Shown piece by piece: positions 2,767 through 17,070 of a DNA stretch of 64,000 nt. Positions within the stretch are counted from its first letter, which is position 1. Every line of letters begins with the position of its first letter. Both the position numbers and the translations under genes were made by a program. The notes under the pieces were generated by a model. That model worked only from the letters and a program-made list of their open reading frames with translations. It did no database searches and was not told the DNA's origin. The DNA is from Pseudomonadota bacterium (GTDB lineage: Bacteria > Pseudomonadota > Gammaproteobacteria > Burkholderiales > Rhodocyclaceae): positions 1 to 64,000 of the forward strand of contig QQUN01000034.1 in NCBI GenBank assembly GCA_008501585.1. The letters run 5' to 3'.

Positions 2767-2784
2767 GGCGGCGCTCAGTGGCGT

Positions 2785-3155
2785 GGGGTGGGCGGCTCAC
2801 CGCCCACCATCGTGTCCGACGCGTGCGGCTGCTTGGTGGGCAGCAGAGCTGACCACCCTACCAAACCATCGCCATCGGGCGACCGAGCCGGTATAGGTGC
2901 GGTGCGAGGCGGTCCCGTAGGGTGGGCGGCTCGCCGCCCACCATCGTGCCCGACGCGTGCGGCTGCTTGGTGGGCAGCAAAGCTGACCACCCTACCAAAC
3001 CATTGCCAGCGGGCGACCGAGCCGGTATAGGTGCGGTGCGAGGCGGTCCCGTAGGGTGGGCGGCTCGCCGCCCACCATCGTGCCCGACGCGTGCTGCTGC
3101 TTGGTGGGCAGCAAAGTTGACCACCCTACCAAACCATCGCCATCGGGCGACCGAG
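2785..3155. repeat. 134-bp tandem array (about 2.8 copies) built on REP-like palindromes
   Basis: The palindrome GGTGGGCGGC/GCCGCCCACC recurs at 2787, 2921 and 3055, a period of exactly 134 bp. Each unit also carries a second, inverted palindrome (TGGTGGGCAGCA...GACCACCCTAC), forming a two-REP mosaic. The copies are nearly identical apart from single-base changes, and the third diverges after about 3155. This fills most of the gap between the membrane protein and the transhydrogenase gene. No coding capacity is credible here. Confidence 0.9.
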
Positions 3156-6674: not shown

Positions 6675-7310
6675 TTATGAGCCGGGCTGTGTTTTTGCGC
6701 GATCTTGCCAGGCGCTGCCTTGTTGCCACGGGGTTGGCAGGCGGCGGCGTTCGGCGCGCAGCGCGTGGTACTCGGCCAGCACGCGCGGCACATAGGCCTG
6801 GGTCTCAGGGTAGGGCGGGATGCCGCCGTGGCGCTCGACGGCGCCGGGGCCGGCGTTGTAGGCGGCGAGGGTCAGTGACAGGTCGCCGTCGAAGCGATCA
6901 AGCAGGTGGCGCAGGTAGTTGGCGCCGGCGGTGAGCGAGCCTGCCGTGCCCGCGCGCTGAAACTGTGCTGCCGTGGCCGGCATGACCTGGGCGAGGCCTT
7001 GCGCGCCTTTGGGGGAGACGGCATCGGCGTTGTAGCCCGATTCGACCTTCACCACTGCATGCAGCAACTCGGTTTCGATGCCGGCGGCCTGGGCGGCAGC
7101 GGCGATGTCGTGGGAGAACGGGCGGGCGCGGGCCGCCGGGTTGTGCTCGCTGGCGGGCGGCAGGCGCCAGTCGGCGCGTGGTTGTAGCTGATACGCGGCG
7201 CCGGGGGTTTGCAGCCGGTAGGGGCTGCTGGCGTTGTCGGCTGGCGCGCTGCCGGCCAGGAACAGCGCAATCAGCGCGCCCAGGTGGCGGGCGAGGCGGT
7301 CAGTACGCAT
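6675..7310 (-). CDS. Lytic transglycosylase, SLT domain, EPS-locus associated
   Basis: Cleaves the glycan strand of peptidoglycan to 1,6-anhydro-muramyl ends. 211 residues with an N-terminal signal (about 1-24). The SLT goose-lysozyme-like core has the catalytic Glu at E90 in VKVESGYNA, followed by SPKGAQGLAQVMP and later TLAAYNAGPGAVE, the classical trio of motifs. Its start overlaps the end of the sugar-phosphate transferase gene by 11 nt, so the two are probably co-transcribed. The context suggests a role in opening the wall for the EPS export machinery, which is inference. Confidence 0.9.
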   Translation of the reverse strand: MRTDRLARHLGALIALFLAGSAPADNASSPYRLQTPGAAYQLQPRADWRLPPASEHNPAARARPFSHDIAAAAQAAGIETELLHAVVKVESGYNADAVSPKGAQGLAQVMPATAAQFQRAGTAGSLTAGANYLRHLLDRFDGDLSLTLAAYNAGPGAVERHGGIPPYPETQAYVPRVLAEYHALRAERRRLPTPWQQGSAWQDRAKTQPGS

Positions 7311-8694
7311 GGCGGTCGCGGAAGACCAGCACCACGGTCTTGACGATGATCCACAGGTCCATGCCGAGCGACCAGTTGCGCAGGTACTCCAGGTCGTAGT
7401 CGATGCGCTTTTCCATCTTGTCGACGGTGTCGGTTTCGCCGCGGTAGCCGTTGACCTGCGCCCAGCCGGTGATGCCCGGCTTGACCTTGTGCCGCACCAT
7501 GTAGCCCTTGATCAGCTTGCGGTAGGTTTCGTTGTGGGCCACGGCGTGGGGGCGGGGGCCGACGATGCTCATGCGCCCCTGCAATACGTTGATGAACTGT
7601 GGCAGTTCGTCGAGCGAGGTGCGGCGGATGAAGGCGCCGAAGCGGGTGATGCGCTGGTCGCCCTTTGACGCCTGCCTGACCACCGCGCCGTCGTCGCAGG
7701 TGGTCATGGAGCGGAACTTGTAGACCACGATCTCCTTGCCGTCGAGGCCATAACGACGCTGCTTGAAGATGACCGGGCCGGGCGAGGAGCGTTTGACGCC
7801 GATCGCCACCGCAGCCAGCACCGGGGAGATCAGCACCAGGATCAGCGCGGCCAGCAGCATGTCCGAGGCGCGCTTGACCATGCCGCTGAAGCCGGTGAAG
7901 GGCGTCTCGCACACGGCCACCACGGGCATGCCGCCGACATGGTCCACCTGACCCTGGATGAGGTCGGTCACAAAAATGTCGGGCACGAAGAACACCGACG
8001 CGGTGGTGTCCTTGATGGTGTCGAGCACGCTGAGGATGCGCGGCTGGCTGGCCATCGGCAGGGCGAGGTAGATGTGGTCGACATGGTGGTGCTTCACGAA
8101 ATCGGCCAGCTGCTGCAGGTTGCCCAGCAGCGGCGCGTCGCCGATGCCGTCGAGGCGATCGCGGGCCCGGTCGTCGAAATACCCCAGAAAGCGCACGCCG
8201 ATGTAGCGGTTGCCGGCAAAGTTGCCGGCCAGGCGCATGCCGGTCTCGTTGCAGCCGGCGATCACTGCCGTGCGGGTGTAACCTTCCATCGCCAGAATGC
8301 CGGGCACCGCCCAGCGGGCCAGCGAATGTGCCGTGATCAGCGCCAGCGGGGTGAGCCCCAGCCACAGGTGCACGACCTGCTCCGGAAAGACCTCGATGTA
8401 CCCGCTGGCCCGCCCGAACACCACCAGGATGACCGCCACGATCAGCCAGTTGACCACGGTCTTGCGCACCATGCGCCGGAAACGCTCATGCAGGAACAGC
8501 GTGCCGGGGAACATCAGCGAAAACACGATCAGCGCGACAATGACATACGGCGCATCGGTACGTTCGCCCTGGGCGAGCGCCACGACGAACAAGGTGGCGA
8601 TGGCCACGGCCGGATCGAGGAAGGTCTCGATCGTGCTGGAAAACGATATGCCGCTGCGATGGCGCAGGCTGGATTTTTCTAGGCTGGCTAGCAT
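7300..8694 (-). CDS. Undecaprenyl-phosphate sugar-phosphate transferase (WcaJ-type), EPS initiation
   Basis: Transfers a hexose-1-phosphate, probably glucose, from the UDP-sugar to undecaprenyl phosphate, the first step of EPS repeat-unit assembly. The 464-residue layout is that of the polyisoprenyl-phosphate hexose-1-phosphate transferase family: several N-terminal membrane spans, a central CoA-binding-like Rossmann segment, one further span, and the catalytic C-terminal domain. The C-terminal motifs KRSSPGPVIFKQ, VYKFRSM, RRTSLDELPQ and GRMSIVGPRPH are diagnostic. It is divergent from epsL and co-oriented with the lytic transglycosylase. Sugar specificity (glucose versus galactose) cannot be read from the sequence. 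Confidence 0.92.
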   Translation of the reverse strand: MLASLEKSSLRHRSGISFSSTIETFLDPAVAIATLFVVALAQGERTDAPYVIVALIVFSLMFPGTLFLHERFRRMVRKTVVNWLIVAVILVVFGRASGYIEVFPEQVVHLWLGLTPLALITAHSLARWAVPGILAMEGYTRTAVIAGCNETGMRLAGNFAGNRYIGVRFLGYFDDRARDRLDGIGDAPLLGNLQQLADFVKHHHVDHIYLALPMASQPRILSVLDTIKDTTASVFFVPDIFVTDLIQGQVDHVGGMPVVAVCETPFTGFSGMVKRASDMLLAALILVLISPVLAAVAIGVKRSSPGPVIFKQRRYGLDGKEIVVYKFRSMTTCDDGAVVRQASKGDQRITRFGAFIRRTSLDELPQFINVLQGRMSIVGPRPHAVAHNETYRKLIKGYMVRHKVKPGITGWAQVNGYRGETDTVDKMEKRIDYDLEYLRNWSLGMDLWIIVKTVVLVFRDRHAY

Positions 8695-12304: not shown

Positions 12305-13132
12305 ATGAACCCACACTGCCCGCCCATGCTCCTCCGCCACCTACTCAAATCGCTGCTGTGCCTGCTGATGTTCATCGGCGCGCTCGGCAGCGCGCAGGCC
12401 GCCGACGCCGAATACGTGCTCGGCCCCGGCGACATCATCCGCATCACCGTCTTCCAGAACCCCGACCTCACCACCGAAACCCGGGTCTCCGAAAACGGCG
12501 CCATCACCTTCCCGCTGGTCGGCAATGTCGATGTCGGCGGGCTCACCGTGCCGGCGGCCGAATCGCGCATTGCCGAGCAGCTGCGTAGCGGCGGCTTCGT
12601 GCTGCAACCGCAGATCGGCATCCTGCCGCTGCAGATCCGCGGCAACCAGGTGGCCGTGCTCGGCCAGGTCAACCGCCCCGGCCGCTACCCGCTCGAAACC
12701 TTCAACATGCGCCTGTCCGACATGCTCGCCATGGCCGGCGGCATTGCCGCCACCGGTGCCGACGAGCTGGTGCTGATCGGCGTGCGCAAGGGCAAGATCG
12801 AGCGCACCGAAATCGACGTGCCCGCCCTGTTCATGAAAGGCGACCTCGCCAAGGACGTGATCGTCTCCGGTGGCGATGTCATCTACGTGCATCGCGCGCC
12901 CACCTTCTACATCTATGGCGAGGTCAACCGCCCCGGCGCCTTCCGCCTCGAGCGCGGCATGACCGTCATGCAGGGCCTCGCCACGGGCGGCGGCGTCACC
13001 ATCCGCGGCACCACCCGCGGCATGCAGATCCACCGCCGGTCTGAAGACGGCACGCAGCAAGTCATCGAGCCGCAGCTCGACCAGGCGCTCGCGCCGAACG
13101 ATGTCATTTTCGTCAAGGAAAGCCTGTTCTAG
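12305..13132 (+). CDS. epsE: EpsE: polysaccharide export lipid-free outer-membrane protein (Wza-like)
   Basis: A Wza-family polysaccharide export protein forming or gating the outer-membrane channel. 275 residues. A signal peptide (cleavage near AQAADAE) is followed by the Poly_export domain (EYVLGPGDIIRITVF, about 37-115) and two SLBB ubiquitin-like folds (QVAVLGQVNRPGRYPL and TFYIYGEVNRPGAFRL). There is no lipobox Cys, unlike E. coli Wza. The ATG at 12305 is used. MLLRHLL at 12326 is an alternative start because neither has a strong ribosome site. It lies 28 nt after epsD and 16 nt before epsF. Confidence 0.92.
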   Translation: MNPHCPPMLLRHLLKSLLCLLMFIGALGSAQAADAEYVLGPGDIIRITVFQNPDLTTETRVSENGAITFPLVGNVDVGGLTVPAAESRIAEQLRSGGFVLQPQIGILPLQIRGNQVAVLGQVNRPGRYPLETFNMRLSDMLAMAGGIAATGADELVLIGVRKGKIERTEIDVPALFMKGDLAKDVIVSGGDVIYVHRAPTFYIYGEVNRPGAFRLERGMTVMQGLATGGGVTIRGTTRGMQIHRRSEDGTQQVIEPQLDQALAPNDVIFVKESLF

Positions 13133-13148
13133 GCCCGGGGTCGTCGCC

Positions 13149-14522
13149 ATGTCGTTTCAGCAATTCCTGCTCATTCTCCGCGCCCGCTTGTGGATCGTGC
13201 TCGGCACCCTGCTGGTGGTGGTGGGCACCACGCTCGCCGTCAGCCTGATCCTGCCCAAGCAATACACCGCCGAAACGGCCCTGGTGGTCGACGCCAAGAG
13301 CGCCGACCCGCTGCTCGGTGGCCTGCTGCCCGCGCAGATGATCCCCGGCTACATGGCCACCCAGGTCGACATCATCCTGTCGGACCGCGTCGCCCAGCGC
13401 GTCGTCAGCCTGCTCAAGATGGATCAGGCGCCGGCCGTGCAAGAGCAGTGGCGCGAGGCAACCGATGGCGAAGGCAGCATCACGGTCTGGTTGGCCGCGG
13501 CGCTTAAAAAGCAGCTCGACGTCAAACCCTCGCGCGAGAGCAACGTCATCACCATCGGCTACCAGGGCGCCGACCCCGGCTTTGCCGCCGGCGTGGCCAA
13601 CGCCTTTGCCCAGGCCTATATCGACGTCAGCCTCGAGCTCAAGGTCGAGCCCGCCCGCCAGTACGCCAAGTGGTTCGACGGCCAGACTGCCAGCCTGCGC
13701 GCCGAGCTCGAAACCGCCCAGAAGAAGCTCTCCGACTACCAGCAGGCGCGCGGCATCATCGCCACCGACGAGCGGCTCGACGTCGAAACCGCCCGTCTGG
13801 CCGAGCTCTCCACCCAGCTCTCCATGGCCCAGGCCCAGCGCGTCGACAGCCGCTCGCGCCAGGCGCAGGGCAACAATGCCGAGAGCCTGCCCGAGGTCAT
13901 GCAGAACAGCCTCATCCAGAGCCTCAAGGCCGACCTCACCCGGCTCGAAGCCACCCGCACCCAAACCGCCGGCCGCCTCGGCGCCAACCACCCCGAACTG
14001 GCCCGCATCGACGCTGAGCTCAGCAGCCTGCGCGAGCGCATCGGCACCGAAACCCGCCGCGTCGTCAGCTCGCTCGGCACCACCAACCGGGTCAACGTCC
14101 AGCGCGTCTCCGAGATCGAAGCCGCCCTCGACGCCCAGAAACAGAAAATCCTCGACCTCAAGGCCGAGCGCGACCAGATCGCCGTCTTCCAGCGCGATGT
14201 GGAAAACGCCCAGCGCGCCTACGACCTCGTCACCCAGCGCCTCGCCCAGACCAGCCTCGAGAGCCAGACCCAGCAGACCAACGTCGTCGTCCTCTCGCCC
14301 GCCGTTGCCCCGCTCAAGCCCTCCAGCCCCAAAGTGCTGCTCAACACCGCGCTCGCCGTCTTCCTCGGCATGCTGCTCGGCGTCGGTGCCGCCCTGCTGC
14401 TCGAGCTGATGGACCAGCGCGTCCGTGGCGCCGAAGACCTCGCCCTGCTCGACGGCGTGCCCCTGCTCGGCACCATCCCCGCCACCGGCAAAGCCGGCGC
14501 CTTCCGCCCCGCCGCCGCATGA
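13149..14522 (+). CDS. epsF: EpsF: chain-length determinant (Wzz/PCP family)
   Basis: An inner-membrane polysaccharide co-polymerase that sets EPS chain length and works with EpsG. 457 residues. The first membrane helix is about 12-35 (LLILRARLWIVLGTLLVVVG) and the second about 397-420, with a long periplasmic coiled-coil domain between (heptad-rich 180-390). The Wzz signature segment VVVLSPAVAPLKPSSPKV precedes the second helix. The short cytosolic tail has no kinase domain, which is supplied by the separate epsG. Its TGA overlaps the ATG of a repeat-filled frame that fills the gap to epsG. Confidence 0.93.
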   Translation: MSFQQFLLILRARLWIVLGTLLVVVGTTLAVSLILPKQYTAETALVVDAKSADPLLGGLLPAQMIPGYMATQVDIILSDRVAQRVVSLLKMDQAPAVQEQWREATDGEGSITVWLAAALKKQLDVKPSRESNVITIGYQGADPGFAAGVANAFAQAYIDVSLELKVEPARQYAKWFDGQTASLRAELETAQKKLSDYQQARGIIATDERLDVETARLAELSTQLSMAQAQRVDSRSRQAQGNNAESLPEVMQNSLIQSLKADLTRLEATRTQTAGRLGANHPELARIDAELSSLRERIGTETRRVVSSLGTTNRVNVQRVSEIEAALDAQKQKILDLKAERDQIAVFQRDVENAQRAYDLVTQRLAQTSLESQTQQTNVVVLSPAVAPLKPSSPKVLLNTALAVFLGMLLGVGAALLLELMDQRVRGAEDLALLDGVPLLGTIPATGKAGAFRPAAA

Positions 14523-15265
14523 ACACGCACCCCCCGGCCTCCCCCGTTGTGTCGGCCGCTCCGATGCCCGCCAACGCATGTCCAGATCACCGTGGCCTGG
14601 TGGGCAACCAGTTGCCCACCCTACAAAACCCGTCGCGCCCCATCGCTGCCGGCGCCCACGCCCCCGTAGGGTGGGCGGCTCGCCGCCCACCATCGATGGC
14701 CACCAACGCCCGCTCCGCCAACACCCACCCCCTCGTAGGGTGGGTTAGGCCGCAGGCCGTAACCCACCAACAACATCGCGCTACGCCCCCGGTCTCCCTC
14801 GTTGTGTCGGCCGCTCCGCTGCCCACCCGCGCGCGTCCATATCACCGTGGCCTGGTGGGCAACAAGTTGCCCACCCTACAAAACCCGTTGCGCCCCATCG
14901 CTGCCGGCGCGCACGCCCCCGTAGGGTGGGCGGCTCGCCGCCCACCGTCGATGGCCACCAACGCCCGCTCCGCCAACACCCACCCCCTCGTAGGGTGGGT
15001 CAGGCCGCAGGCCGTAACCCACCAACACCATCACGCCACGCCCCCGATCTCCCTCGTTGTGTCGGCCGCTCCGCTGCCCACCCGCGCGCGTCCAGATCAC
15101 CGTGGCTTGGTGGGCAACAAGTTGCCCACCCTACAAAACCGCGCCCCCGTAGGGTGGGCGGCTTGCCGCCCACCATCGATGACCGCCAACGGCCCGAACG
15201 ACACCACCTCGTCCGCGCGGCGCACCCAAACCCCCGCATCCGCCCCGCACGCCGGAGCCCAATGA
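14519..15265 (+). CDS. Doubtful 248-codon frame made of REP repeats, bridging epsF and epsG
   Basis: The frame starts at an ATG overlapping the epsF stop (ATGA) and ends at a TGA overlapping the epsG ATG (ATGA). It consists almost entirely of the 255-bp repeat (85 codons, read as a Pro/Arg/Ala-rich unit with GWAARRPPS and RPQAVTHQ). No domain, signal or membrane segment is visible and no ribosome site precedes the ATG. It could be translated simply to carry ribosomes from epsF to epsG, or it may be a chance open frame in GC-rich repeats. I do not propose a protein function. Confidence 0.3.
   Translation: MNTHPPASPVVSAAPMPANACPDHRGLVGNQLPTLQNPSRPIAAGAHAPVGWAARRPPSMATNARSANTHPLVGWVRPQAVTHQQHRATPPVSLVVSAAPLPTRARPYHRGLVGNKLPTLQNPLRPIAAGAHAPVGWAARRPPSMATNARSANTHPLVGWVRPQAVTHQHHHATPPISLVVSAAPLPTRARPDHRGLVGNKLPTLQNRAPVGWAACRPPSMTANGPNDTTSSARRTQTPASAPHAGAQ
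14546..15174. repeat. 255-bp in-frame tandem array with REP-like palindromes
   Basis: The marker GTTGTGTCGGCCGCTCCG recurs at 14546, 14801 and 15056, a period of exactly 255 bp (85 codons). Each full unit carries three palindromes: GGTGGGCAA..TTGCCCACC, GTAG-GGTGGGCGGC..GCCGCCCACC, and GTAG-GGTGGGTTAGGCC..GTAACCCACC. The third copy is partial and lacks a net 27 bp (nine codons), so the reading frame is unchanged. The 740-bp gap sits inside an otherwise tightly packed operon. Confidence 0.92.
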
Positions 15266-16161
15266 CCATGACCACACTCCACCGCGTCGCTACCGCCCTC
15301 GACCCCGCCGTACCGCGCCCCGAGGCCGACCGCTCCATCGGCGCGCTGCTCATCGACGCCGGCAAGCTCAAGCCCGAAGACGCCGAGCGCGTCCTGCGCC
15401 TCCAGCGCGAACAAGGCCTCCGCTTCGGCGACGCCGCCAAACAACTCGGCCTCATCACCGACGCCGACATCGAACAAGCCCTGCTGCGCCAGTTCGACTA
15501 CCCCTACCTCACCGCCGGGCAAAGCACCGTCCAGGCCTCGGTGGTGGCCGCCTACCAGCCGTTCTCCCCGCAGGTCGAAGCCCTCCGCGCCCTGCGCAGC
15601 CAACTCATGCTGCGCTGGTTCGACACCAGCGCCGAACAAAAAACCCTCGCCGTCACCAGCCCCGGCCGGCACGAAGGCCGCTCCTGGATCACCGCCAACC
15701 TCGGCGTTGTCTTCTCCCAGCTCGGCGAGCGCACCCTCATCATCGACGCCGACCTGCGCCACCCGCGCCAGCACCAACTGTTCGGTGTCGACAACCGCGC
15801 CGGCCTCTCTGCCTTCCTCTCCGGCCGCGGCGGCCCCGACATCATCCAGCGCGTGCCCGCCCTGCGCGACCTCTCCGTGCTGCCCGCCGGCACCGTGCCG
15901 CCCAACCCGCAAGAGCTGCTCGCCCGCCCCGTGTTTGCCCAGCTGCTCGCCCAGCTCGCCAACGAATTCGACGTCATCCTCATCGACACCCCCGCAGGCA
16001 GCCTCTTCGCCGACGGCCAGACCATCGCCGTGCGCGCCAGCGGCGCCCTCGTCGTCGCCCAGCGCAACGCCAGCCGCCTCAGCCTGCTGCGCAGCTACAC
16101 CGACATGCTCCGCCAGGCCAGTGCCACCGTCGTGGGCGTGGTCATGAACGAAAAACCGTAA
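15262..16161 (+). CDS. epsG: EpsG: chain-length determinant tyrosine-kinase-like ATPase
   Basis: A cytoplasmic partner of EpsF, related to BY-kinases (Wzc C-terminal half). 299 residues. The N-terminal MshEN/T2SSE-N-like domain (about 25-82, IGALLIDAGKLKPEDAERVL) is typical of EpsG. The P-loop domain follows, with TSPGRHEGRSW at 132-142 in the Walker A position and IIDADLR at 160-166 as Walker A'. The canonical Walker A Lys is Arg (R140), and there is no C-terminal Tyr cluster, so kinase activity is uncertain. The start at 15262 has GGAG 4 nt upstream and overlaps the stop of the repeat frame. Confidence 0.9.
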   Translation: MTMTTLHRVATALDPAVPRPEADRSIGALLIDAGKLKPEDAERVLRLQREQGLRFGDAAKQLGLITDADIEQALLRQFDYPYLTAGQSTVQASVVAAYQPFSPQVEALRALRSQLMLRWFDTSAEQKTLAVTSPGRHEGRSWITANLGVVFSQLGERTLIIDADLRHPRQHQLFGVDNRAGLSAFLSGRGGPDIIQRVPALRDLSVLPAGTVPPNPQELLARPVFAQLLAQLANEFDVILIDTPAGSLFADGQTIAVRASGALVVAQRNASRLSLLRSYTDMLRQASATVVGVVMNEKP

Positions 16162-16188: not shown

Positions 16189-17070
16189 ATGACCGCCACT
16201 GCCTCCGCCTCCGCACGCCGAGCGCCGAACCGCGCCGACCTCGCGCCCTGGCTCATCGTCGCCCTCGGGTTGGCGGTCATGTATGTGCCCAGCTTCATCG
16301 ACTTGTTCCGGACCATTTGGTCAACCGACGAGCAAGCCCACGGCCCCATCGTGCTCGGGTTGTCGGTGTGGCTGGTGTGGCGCAGATGGCCGAGCCTGGC
16401 GAGCCTGCCGGCAAACGGTGCGCGGCCGGCGCTGGCGTGGCCCATGCTGATCGTGGCCGGGCTGTTCTACGCCCTTGGCCGCTCGCAAGGCATTCTCATT
16501 TTCGAAGTCGGCTCGCTGGTGTGGATGCTCGCCGGCCTGCTGCTGCTCCTGCGTGGCCCCGCGGCGGTGCGCCTCATGTGGTTCGCGCTGTTCTTCATGC
16601 TGTTCATGATCCCGCTGCCCGGCATCGTCGTCGACACGCTCACCGCCCCCATGAAAATGGCCGTCAGCTACGTGGCCGAGCAAATCCTGTACGCAGTGGG
16701 TTATCCAATCGCCCGAACCGGCGTCATGTTGCAGATCGGCCAATACCAGTTGCTGGTGGCCGACGCCTGCGCCGGGCTGCACACCCTGTTCACGCTCGAA
16801 GCCCTCGGCCTGCTCTACCTCAATGTGGTGCGCCACGCCTCGGTGCTGCGCAACATCTCGCTCGCCATCCTCATCGTGCCCATCAGCTTCACCGCCAACG
16901 TCATCCGCGTCATGGTGCTCACCCTCATCACCTACCACTTTGGCGACGAAGCCGGGCAGGGCTTCCTGCATGGCTTCTCGGGCATGGTGCTGTTCGTCAG
17001 CGCCTTGCTGCTCATCATTGCCGCAGACTCGGCCTTGCGCTTTGGTGTCAAGGGACGGCTCGCCGCATGA
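16189..17070 (+). CDS. xrtB: Exosortase B (XrtB), PEP-CTERM sorting protease/transpeptidase
   Basis: A polytopic inner-membrane cysteine enzyme that processes proteins at the PEP-CTERM signal. 293 residues and about eight membrane helices. The catalytic triad positions are visible: Cys194 in VADACAGLHTL, Arg240 in TANVIRVMVLT, and His261 in GFLHGFSGMVLF. The arrangement epsEFG-xrt-epsI is that of EpsH-type loci, and the sequence is closer in my judgement to type B than type A. Its stop overlaps the epsI start. Likely substrates here are the PEP-CTERM proteins at 10490 and 36268. Confidence 0.93.
   Translation: MTATASASARRAPNRADLAPWLIVALGLAVMYVPSFIDLFRTIWSTDEQAHGPIVLGLSVWLVWRRWPSLASLPANGARPALAWPMLIVAGLFYALGRSQGILIFEVGSLVWMLAGLLLLLRGPAAVRLMWFALFFMLFMIPLPGIVVDTLTAPMKMAVSYVAEQILYAVGYPIARTGVMLQIGQYQLLVADACAGLHTLFTLEALGLLYLNVVRHASVLRNISLAILIVPISFTANVIRVMVLTLITYHFGDEAGQGFLHGFSGMVLFVSALLLIIAADSALRFGVKGRLAA

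Follow-up and report, generated by a model that had tools for sequence, protein, structure and literature searches.

In the Denitromonas clade, REP sequences lodged between epsF and epsG are spanned by an open reading frame which starts at the epsF stop codon and terminates beside the epsG start, and the phase of this frame is kept despite changes in the length of the insert. Such frames recur at four other junctions between co-directional genes and fail at a junction where the genes do not touch. From these comparisons it is likely that REP inserts lodged where genes are translationally coupled are retained as relay open reading frames, selection acting on the frame and its phase and not on the peptide. 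The window referred to below is the whole stretch of 64,000 nucleotides analysed, and coordinates are given in it.

The repeat array and the bridging frame in the window

The gene order in the window is epsF, epsG, exosortase B. The features of the epsF-epsG junction are listed below.

13101..14522, plus strand: epsF, polysaccharide chain-length determinant (TIGR03017, 623 bits)
14519..14522, plus strand: ATGA, the epsF stop TGA overlapping the ATG of the bridging frame (GTGA in relative L017)
14519..15265, plus strand: bridging (putative relay) frame of 248 codons, without family match (ORF, translation, profile search)
14531..14785, plus strand: repeat copy 1, 255 nt = 85 codons
14786..15040, plus strand: repeat copy 2, 255 nt, 93% identical to copy 1
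15041..15208, plus strand: repeat copy 3, shortened, with 27 nt less internally (comparison with the closest relative)
14666..14692, plus strand: GTAG-tagged palindrome GTAGGGTGGGCGGCTCGCCGCCCACCA (REP type 1), with more copies at 14921 and 15149
14599..14624, minus strand: second palindrome, CTAC-ended (GTAG on the minus strand), with more copies at 14854 and 15109
15254..15257, plus strand: GGAG, possible epsG Shine-Dalgarno within the bridging frame, present in six of the seven same-geometry genomes including the window
15263..15270, plus strand: TGACCATG, the bridging-frame stop 2 bases ahead of the conserved epsG start (TGACCATG, TGAACATG or TAACCATG in seven genomes)
15268..16161, plus strand: epsG, tyrosine kinase, conserved start 15268, alternative 15262 (TIGR03029, 365 bits; start conservation)

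The initial annotation had described a 255-bp (85-codon) repeat between epsF and epsG, the third copy of which had lost a net 27 bp. Both observations were borne out: two full copies are followed by a shorter third, and the 27-nt difference is seen against the closest relative. Tandem Repeats Finder reported a period of 255 with 2.4 copies at 14524-15140. The palindromes have the properties of GTAG-type REPs, as GTAGGGTGGGCGGCTCGCCGCCCACC and its relatives carry the GTAG tag at one palindrome end and occur in many genomic copies (63 among the matches listed to the 747-nt stretch in its own genome, including the stretch itself and some matches overlapping it).

The start codon of the bridging frame shares bases with the epsF TGA, and its stop is the TGA at 15263-15265. 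Each junction thus has the overlap or very short spacing of a coupled pair: -4 between epsF and the bridge, and TGA-CC-ATG between the bridge and epsG. The last epsF codon, GCA, is a rare alanine codon (21 of 475 Ala codons in seven genes). No Shine-Dalgarno sequence was seen ahead of the bridging ATG.

No Pfam or NCBIfam match to the bridging frame of the window was obtained in a profile search. There are 17 differences between copies 1 and 2, distributed 6/5/6 over the codon positions, and 12 of the 16 changed codons are nonsynonymous. As the changes are evenly spread and mostly nonsynonymous, the bridge peptide is not conserved. The openness of the frame had a probability of 0.072 or 0.079 in two dinucleotide-shuffle runs, and the +2 frame of the same gap has just one stop. 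From the window genome by itself an open frame might be fortuitous; the evidence for more than chance comes from the relatives.

Conservation of phase at epsF-epsG in the genus

epsG was found in all ten genus genomes compared. The gap is at least 60 nt in eight of them, and all eight gaps are bridged. In the other two (L019 and L020) epsG begins at or beside the epsF stop; in L019, which lacks an insert, its start is the very ATGA that opens the bridging frame elsewhere. Seven of the eight genomes share one geometry, in which an ATG or GTG overlapping the epsF stop leads to a TGA or TAA placed 2 bases before the conserved epsG ATG; the bridges have 248, 132, 53, 52, 52, 51 and 23 codons. The eighth (L018) has another geometry, a 23-codon bridge running from an ATG just past the stop to the ATGA of epsG.

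The distances from the epsF stop to the epsG ATG in the seven genomes are 745, 397, 160, 157, 157, 154 and 70 nt, the first six values coming from syntenic genomes. These are six distinct lengths, congruent modulo 3, and all are open. REP content also differs: one pair of genomes has the window repeat, one genome has a different palindrome pair, three have a degenerate third type and the shortest two have almost none. The bases ahead of the bridge stop vary as well; the stop stays TGA or TAA and the start stays ATG or GTG. The comparison of relatives that the initial annotation had proposed thus gave gaps variable in length and REP content, with the phase kept in seven genomes.

The annotation had drawn the frame from the ATGA at the epsF stop to an ATGA at the epsG start. 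Its beginning holds. At the other end, the ATG at 15262 is missing in four of the seven same-geometry genomes and the ATG at 15268 is conserved, with TGA-CC before it; the bridge end is therefore better described as the TGACCATG stop-start junction than as ATGA. The conserved start of epsG is probably 15268, judging from this comparison.

Two other origins of the frame were weighed against these data. It might encode a functional small protein, and the ends of the bridges are indeed alike in several genomes (they start MNTH, MNTY, MSTH or MSPQ and end PHAGA or PHARA). The middle is replaced between species, however, at lengths from 23 to 248 codons, and with the missing family match and the even spread of inter-copy changes in the window this makes a functional peptide highly improbable. 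The frame might instead be the relic of a longer epsG N-terminus that was split by a frameshift and has drifted unconstrained since, as might be suggested by the L019 epsG, which begins at that ATGA and also has an MNT-like start. A drifting relic is hard to credit when REPs have been gained, lost and swapped between genomes and the phase has never been lost, the same being found at four other junctions. We give it the least weight of all the alternatives.

At the neighbouring locus, exosortase B (window 16189-17070) is 90-91% identical to its counterparts in G003 and G009 and 64-70% identical to those in G001, G004 and G006, while the adjacent epsF and epsG are 90-97% identical in all five of those genomes. 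From its sequence the exosortase B pattern looks like allele replacement.

Phase in control gaps

Eleven other length-variable co-directional gaps of the same region served as controls. None of the 11 has its lengths in a single residue class modulo 3, and successive lengths differ by a multiple of 3 in 6 of 38 steps. Three gaps were left out: 5-4 (two lengths 162 nt apart) and 22-23 (2 or 5 nt), both of which differ by multiples of 3, and 12-13, which spans many genes. In row 0-1 the G009 value of 9544 was dropped, its best match being elsewhere; rows 8-10 and 13-14 were kept though they hold, or possibly hold, coding DNA.

Among pairs of gaps at least 70% identical, the net length difference is a multiple of 3 in 44 of 52 bridged pairs versus 11 of 55 control pairs. 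Individual alignment indels showed no enrichment for multiples of 3 (62 of 195 in bridged gaps versus 55 of 215 in controls). With single indels unenriched, either compensation or misalignment must be invoked. We suspect that alignments of palindromes are unreliable.

The gene pair at gap 5-4, one of those left out (window 7300-8694 and 6675-7310) overlaps by 11 nt in five of six genomes. In G003 two 81-nt repeats stand in tandem in the same pair, a 162-nt insert that stays in frame and lengthens the downstream protein at its N-terminus, from 211 to 261 codons. The 162-nt length difference of this gap is due to these in-frame repeats.

Recurrence at other operon junctions

Co-directional REP-bearing gaps were scanned in parts of G000, G001 and G004, in the syntenic regions of five genomes and in the window; each row is one gap in one genome, so that some junctions are counted repeatedly. 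By a lax criterion 11 of 47 gaps are bridged, six of six at epsF-epsG and five of 41 elsewhere; the remaining 36 of these 41 other gaps are unbridged. The five further bridged junctions are pqqD-pqqE, hypD-hypE, hypE-hypX, gp25 (the junction ahead of a gp25-like gene) and recG-ubiC. PqqD, PqqE, HypD, HypE and gp25 were assigned by family matches; HypX, recG and ubiC, and rfbB and rfbA below, are names which we take to apply from sequence or context.

When the junctions were followed through the genus, every insert of at least 60 nt was bridged at pqqD-pqqE (7/7), hypD-hypE (5/5), hypE-hypX (7/7) and gp25 (7/7), as at epsF-epsG (8/8). Over these five junctions together all 34 inserts are bridged, and all 29 that remain once the five discovery rows are set aside. 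Scoring covered 36 rows, of which L019 and L020, unbridged because epsG lies at or next to the epsF stop, were dropped; hypD-hypE loci L253-L255 lacked a hypD match and were left unscored. The inserts are 63 to 841 nt long, and the longest bridges have 248 codons at eps and 281 at hypD-hypE. The ends of all 34 bridges lie from 11 nt ahead of the next start to 8 nt past it (the criterion allowed -12 to +8).

Where the insert is lacking, the genes mostly touch. The insert-free hypE-hypX junction reads TGATG in L252 and L255, the gp25 junction is TGA+2 in L263 and L264, and pqqD and pqqE overlap in L239. At hypD-hypE the single short case in the genus (L252) has the genes 27 nt apart, with ATGA in several other genera of the family; the bridge here opens with a GTG 3 nt past the stop, a weaker geometry. 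The proposal of the initial annotation that a translatable frame is under selection thus gained from the eight bridged genus gaps and the four further junctions; its footing in the window alone is weak, about 7% of shuffles being open.

The long hypD-hypE and hypE-hypX inserts of L247-L251 share, besides REPs, a larger palindromic repeat (GTTGGCCGGGTCTCGCCCCGGCGGGCGAC...).

The pattern compared with chance

GC-rich, stop-poor repeats can give long open frames, and ATGA easily yields start/stop overlaps, so that the whole arrangement might be accidental, as the initial annotation had allowed. The openness of the window frame and its nearly open +2 frame fit this explanation, and so do bridged short gaps in G001, where in 400 kb 7 of 87 gaps of 60-1500 nt (each counted once) are bridged, six of them among the 47 gaps of 60-150 nt (one being pqqD-pqqE). 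Of the 40 gaps of at least 150 nt, however, only one is bridged, and it looks like a real gene.

Shuffles keeping dinucleotides and length gave 12.8 bridged cases expected among the 36 rows, and 5.4 when the phase was also random, against the 34 of 34 inserts observed. The other five frames of the same 34 inserts are fully open in 7, 9, 9, 9 and 12 cases (46 of 170, 27%). Each of them has 46-62 stops in 3220 codons, the bridging frame having zero by definition. For 24 cases, one per distinct length and without discovery rows, the product of the random-phase probabilities (floored at 0.001) is about 10^-24 and that of the same-length probabilities 10^-14.5; shared ancestry makes both products too small. 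As the species share ancestry, the 34 bridged cases are not 34 independent events. In our judgement this does not shrink the improbability enough to restore chance. With the phase constant over six distinct lengths in seven genomes, accident is strongly disfavoured and we consider it very unlikely, although one junction found by the same scan, recG-ubiC, behaved as chance would have it.

Junctions that do not follow

At recG-ubiC the discovery genome G001 is bridged and, by the strict criterion and for gaps of at least 60 nt, one of six other genomes. The gap lengths (243, 139, 150, 201, 148, 166 and 68 nt) are mixed modulo 3. recG-ubiC was accordingly ruled out as a replicating bridge. In the three genomes where the insert is small or missing, 24-51 nt separate the genes, which never touch, so the junction serves as a contrast to the others. 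It was examined last, after the other counts were complete. With it included, 36 of 41 inserts are bridged at all six junctions, or 30 of 35 without the six discovery rows. Sorted by junction type, the follow-up of the scan gives 29 of 29 at junctions whose genes overlap or abut when the insert is lacking (with the 27-nt caveat for hypD-hypE) versus one of six otherwise. Because recG-ubiC lowers the overall replication rate yet supports coupling, it changes our confidence little. The REP-bearing gaps of G001 and of the orthologs L307-L316 end in a conserved GCGAACGCGGTAAGATGCGCGCCGCA ahead of ubiC, a stretch which, from its position and conservation, may be ubiC's own promoter or leader.

At rfbB-rfbA the genes are 4 nt apart in three genus genomes, and three others have REP inserts that are unbridged. 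Another REP array in the window (2782-3155; 134-nt unit, 2.8 copies) lies in a gap of 532 to 837 nt which is unbridged in six of six genomes.

Bridged junctions outside the genus

The family survey took the best 30 ranked loci of each search. Long inserts are few: at pqqD-pqqE one of 21 loci (L271) has one, which is bridged, and at hypE-hypX three of 20 scorable loci do. Of these three, L299 is bridged; L287 and L289 have an open frame from TTG which stops 15 and 34 nt too early. L299 has a further REP insert, after hypD, and the frame across it runs 28 nt into the next gene. L271 and L299 belong to one genome, G174, in which a different GTAG REP type is thus bridged at both pqqD-pqqE and hypE-hypX. 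Unscored were L292 and L305 (hypD-hypE) and L306 (hypE-hypX), which likewise lacked a match, and L302 (hypD-hypE), which has no start. A gene of about 116 codons lies between hypD and hypE in L299, L300 and L304.

At epsF-epsG six loci outside the genus with gaps of more than 100 nt were inspected. L115 is cleanly bridged, the bridging frames of L029 and L145 overlap epsG by 29 and 20 nt, and in L049 the frame opens 18 nt past the stop and falls 12 nt short of epsG. The remaining two of the six, L140 and L149, are not bridged.

Proposed mechanism

At a spacing of about 20 nt, stop-restart coupling has reportedly all but vanished (PMC10666635); a REP insert would therefore uncouple a gene pair unless the insert itself is read. 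We propose that a GTAG-type REP cluster lodged in a junction where epsG was originally stop-start coupled to epsF. After terminating at the epsF TGA, ribosomes would reinitiate at the ATG that overlaps it and translate the repeats in the bridging frame as far as the TGA 2 bases before epsG, where they would terminate again and reinitiate on epsG. The geometry of the bridge, its start overlapping the upstream stop and its end lying at the next gene's start, fits such a relay. The target of selection would be an open frame with both ends in phase, irrespective of the peptide sequence, since with a frameshift or a stop the relay would fail, and as many as hundreds of nucleotides of the operon message would go untranslated. 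On this reading the frames would be translated, would couple the flanking genes and might shield the message from Rho.

The last of these effects could be thought sufficient. Long untranslated C-rich RNA is a classical substrate of Rho, and any translation over the gap would protect the message, epsG then using its own Shine-Dalgarno sequence, for which the GGAG at 15254-15257 could serve. A Shine-Dalgarno-like sequence is in fact present ahead of epsG and, by eye, of most pqqE and gp25 loci, so independent initiation at the downstream genes is possible. The C-rich gap was considered as the sign of a Rho site and rejected: its composition (C 0.46, G 0.26) does not differ from that of epsG (0.45, 0.26) and so bears no mark of an unusual site. 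Unbridged REPs are moreover tolerated in other gaps, for instance rfbB-rfbA, and the 34 bridges end within -11 to +8 nt of the next start, closer than polarity would need. Rho-dependent polarity by itself is thus an unlikely account of the bridges. That stop-start coupling weakens with distance explains the keeping of the frame at least as well as the Rho cut-off proposed in the initial annotation, and protection from Rho would be a reasonable second benefit of the relay.

If the relay reading is right, junk repeats have become part of the path of the ribosome, and stop-start coupling matters enough to influence which mobile repeats persist in operons. The five junctions, with five to eight species each, would be natural replicates in which the gap length changes and the frame does not, and the distance dependence of coupling, so far tested with reporters, would become testable by evolution. 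Frames over REPs that are dismissed as spurious could then be under constraint even where their product has no use.

What is constrained seems to be the junction, not the element. The phase of the REP type GTAGGGCGGATAAG is 0 at the junctions of eps and hyp and 1 at those of pqq and gp25, and several REP types occupy one junction in different species; the same type is thus read in two phases, and types are swapped in sister species. Of the 42 GTAGG words in the 34 bridging frames (related genomes included), 28 are in one phase and 14 in the other. As a tentative extension, which we hold as possible with much less confidence than the relay itself, a family-wide rule may apply: REPs would colonise coupled junctions and be retained there mainly as relay frames, the frame being free to break at uncoupled junctions, and the act of insertion might even promote ATGA and TGATG overlaps or copy them, much as with MIRUs.

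A gene for a RAYT-like protein (Y1_Tnp, above the Pfam cut-off) was found at G000:C61:131262-131582 (L173). GTAGGG and CCCTAC words are present in its 3.3-kb locus, and the GTAGG..GGG pattern of the REP type of the array is absent from it. By its family match this Y1 transposase is a candidate mover of these REPs.

Comparison with known systems

GTAG REPs of the RAYT systems are GTAG-tagged palindromes which occur in clusters and, in several species, in frame inside genes, and GTAG-1 arrays flank exopolysaccharide genes in Thauera sp. MZ1T, as the sections of PMC3733652 concerned with them describe. The frames reported here differ from the REPs inside genes in those sections in being separate relay frames between genes, with start and stop meshed with both neighbours. 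Rickettsia palindromic elements, as cited in the same paper, are likewise palindromic repeats kept in frame; they lie within open reading frames, however, and become part of the protein.

Short upstream frames that deliver ribosomes, or bicistronic coupling, as treated in part of the review PMC12548453, likewise involve a frame that only brings ribosomes to the next gene. Here the frame is made of repeats and reaches 248 codons at eps and 281 at hypD-hypE.

The closest precedent is the mycobacterial interspersed repetitive units (MIRU; Supply et al. 1997, as described in the same review), in which the frame of the repeat is meshed with the upstream stop and the downstream start. The same meshing is found here, and it would work in the same way. 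The elements here are GTAG REP palindromes and their composites, in a different host group. As the GTAG palindromes point to a different family, the array is not filed as MIRU. On one reading of PMC12548453, the frame of MIRU is moreover a fixed property of the element, which is not the case at the junctions described here. No report of REP relay frames between genes was found in the openly licensed papers searched.
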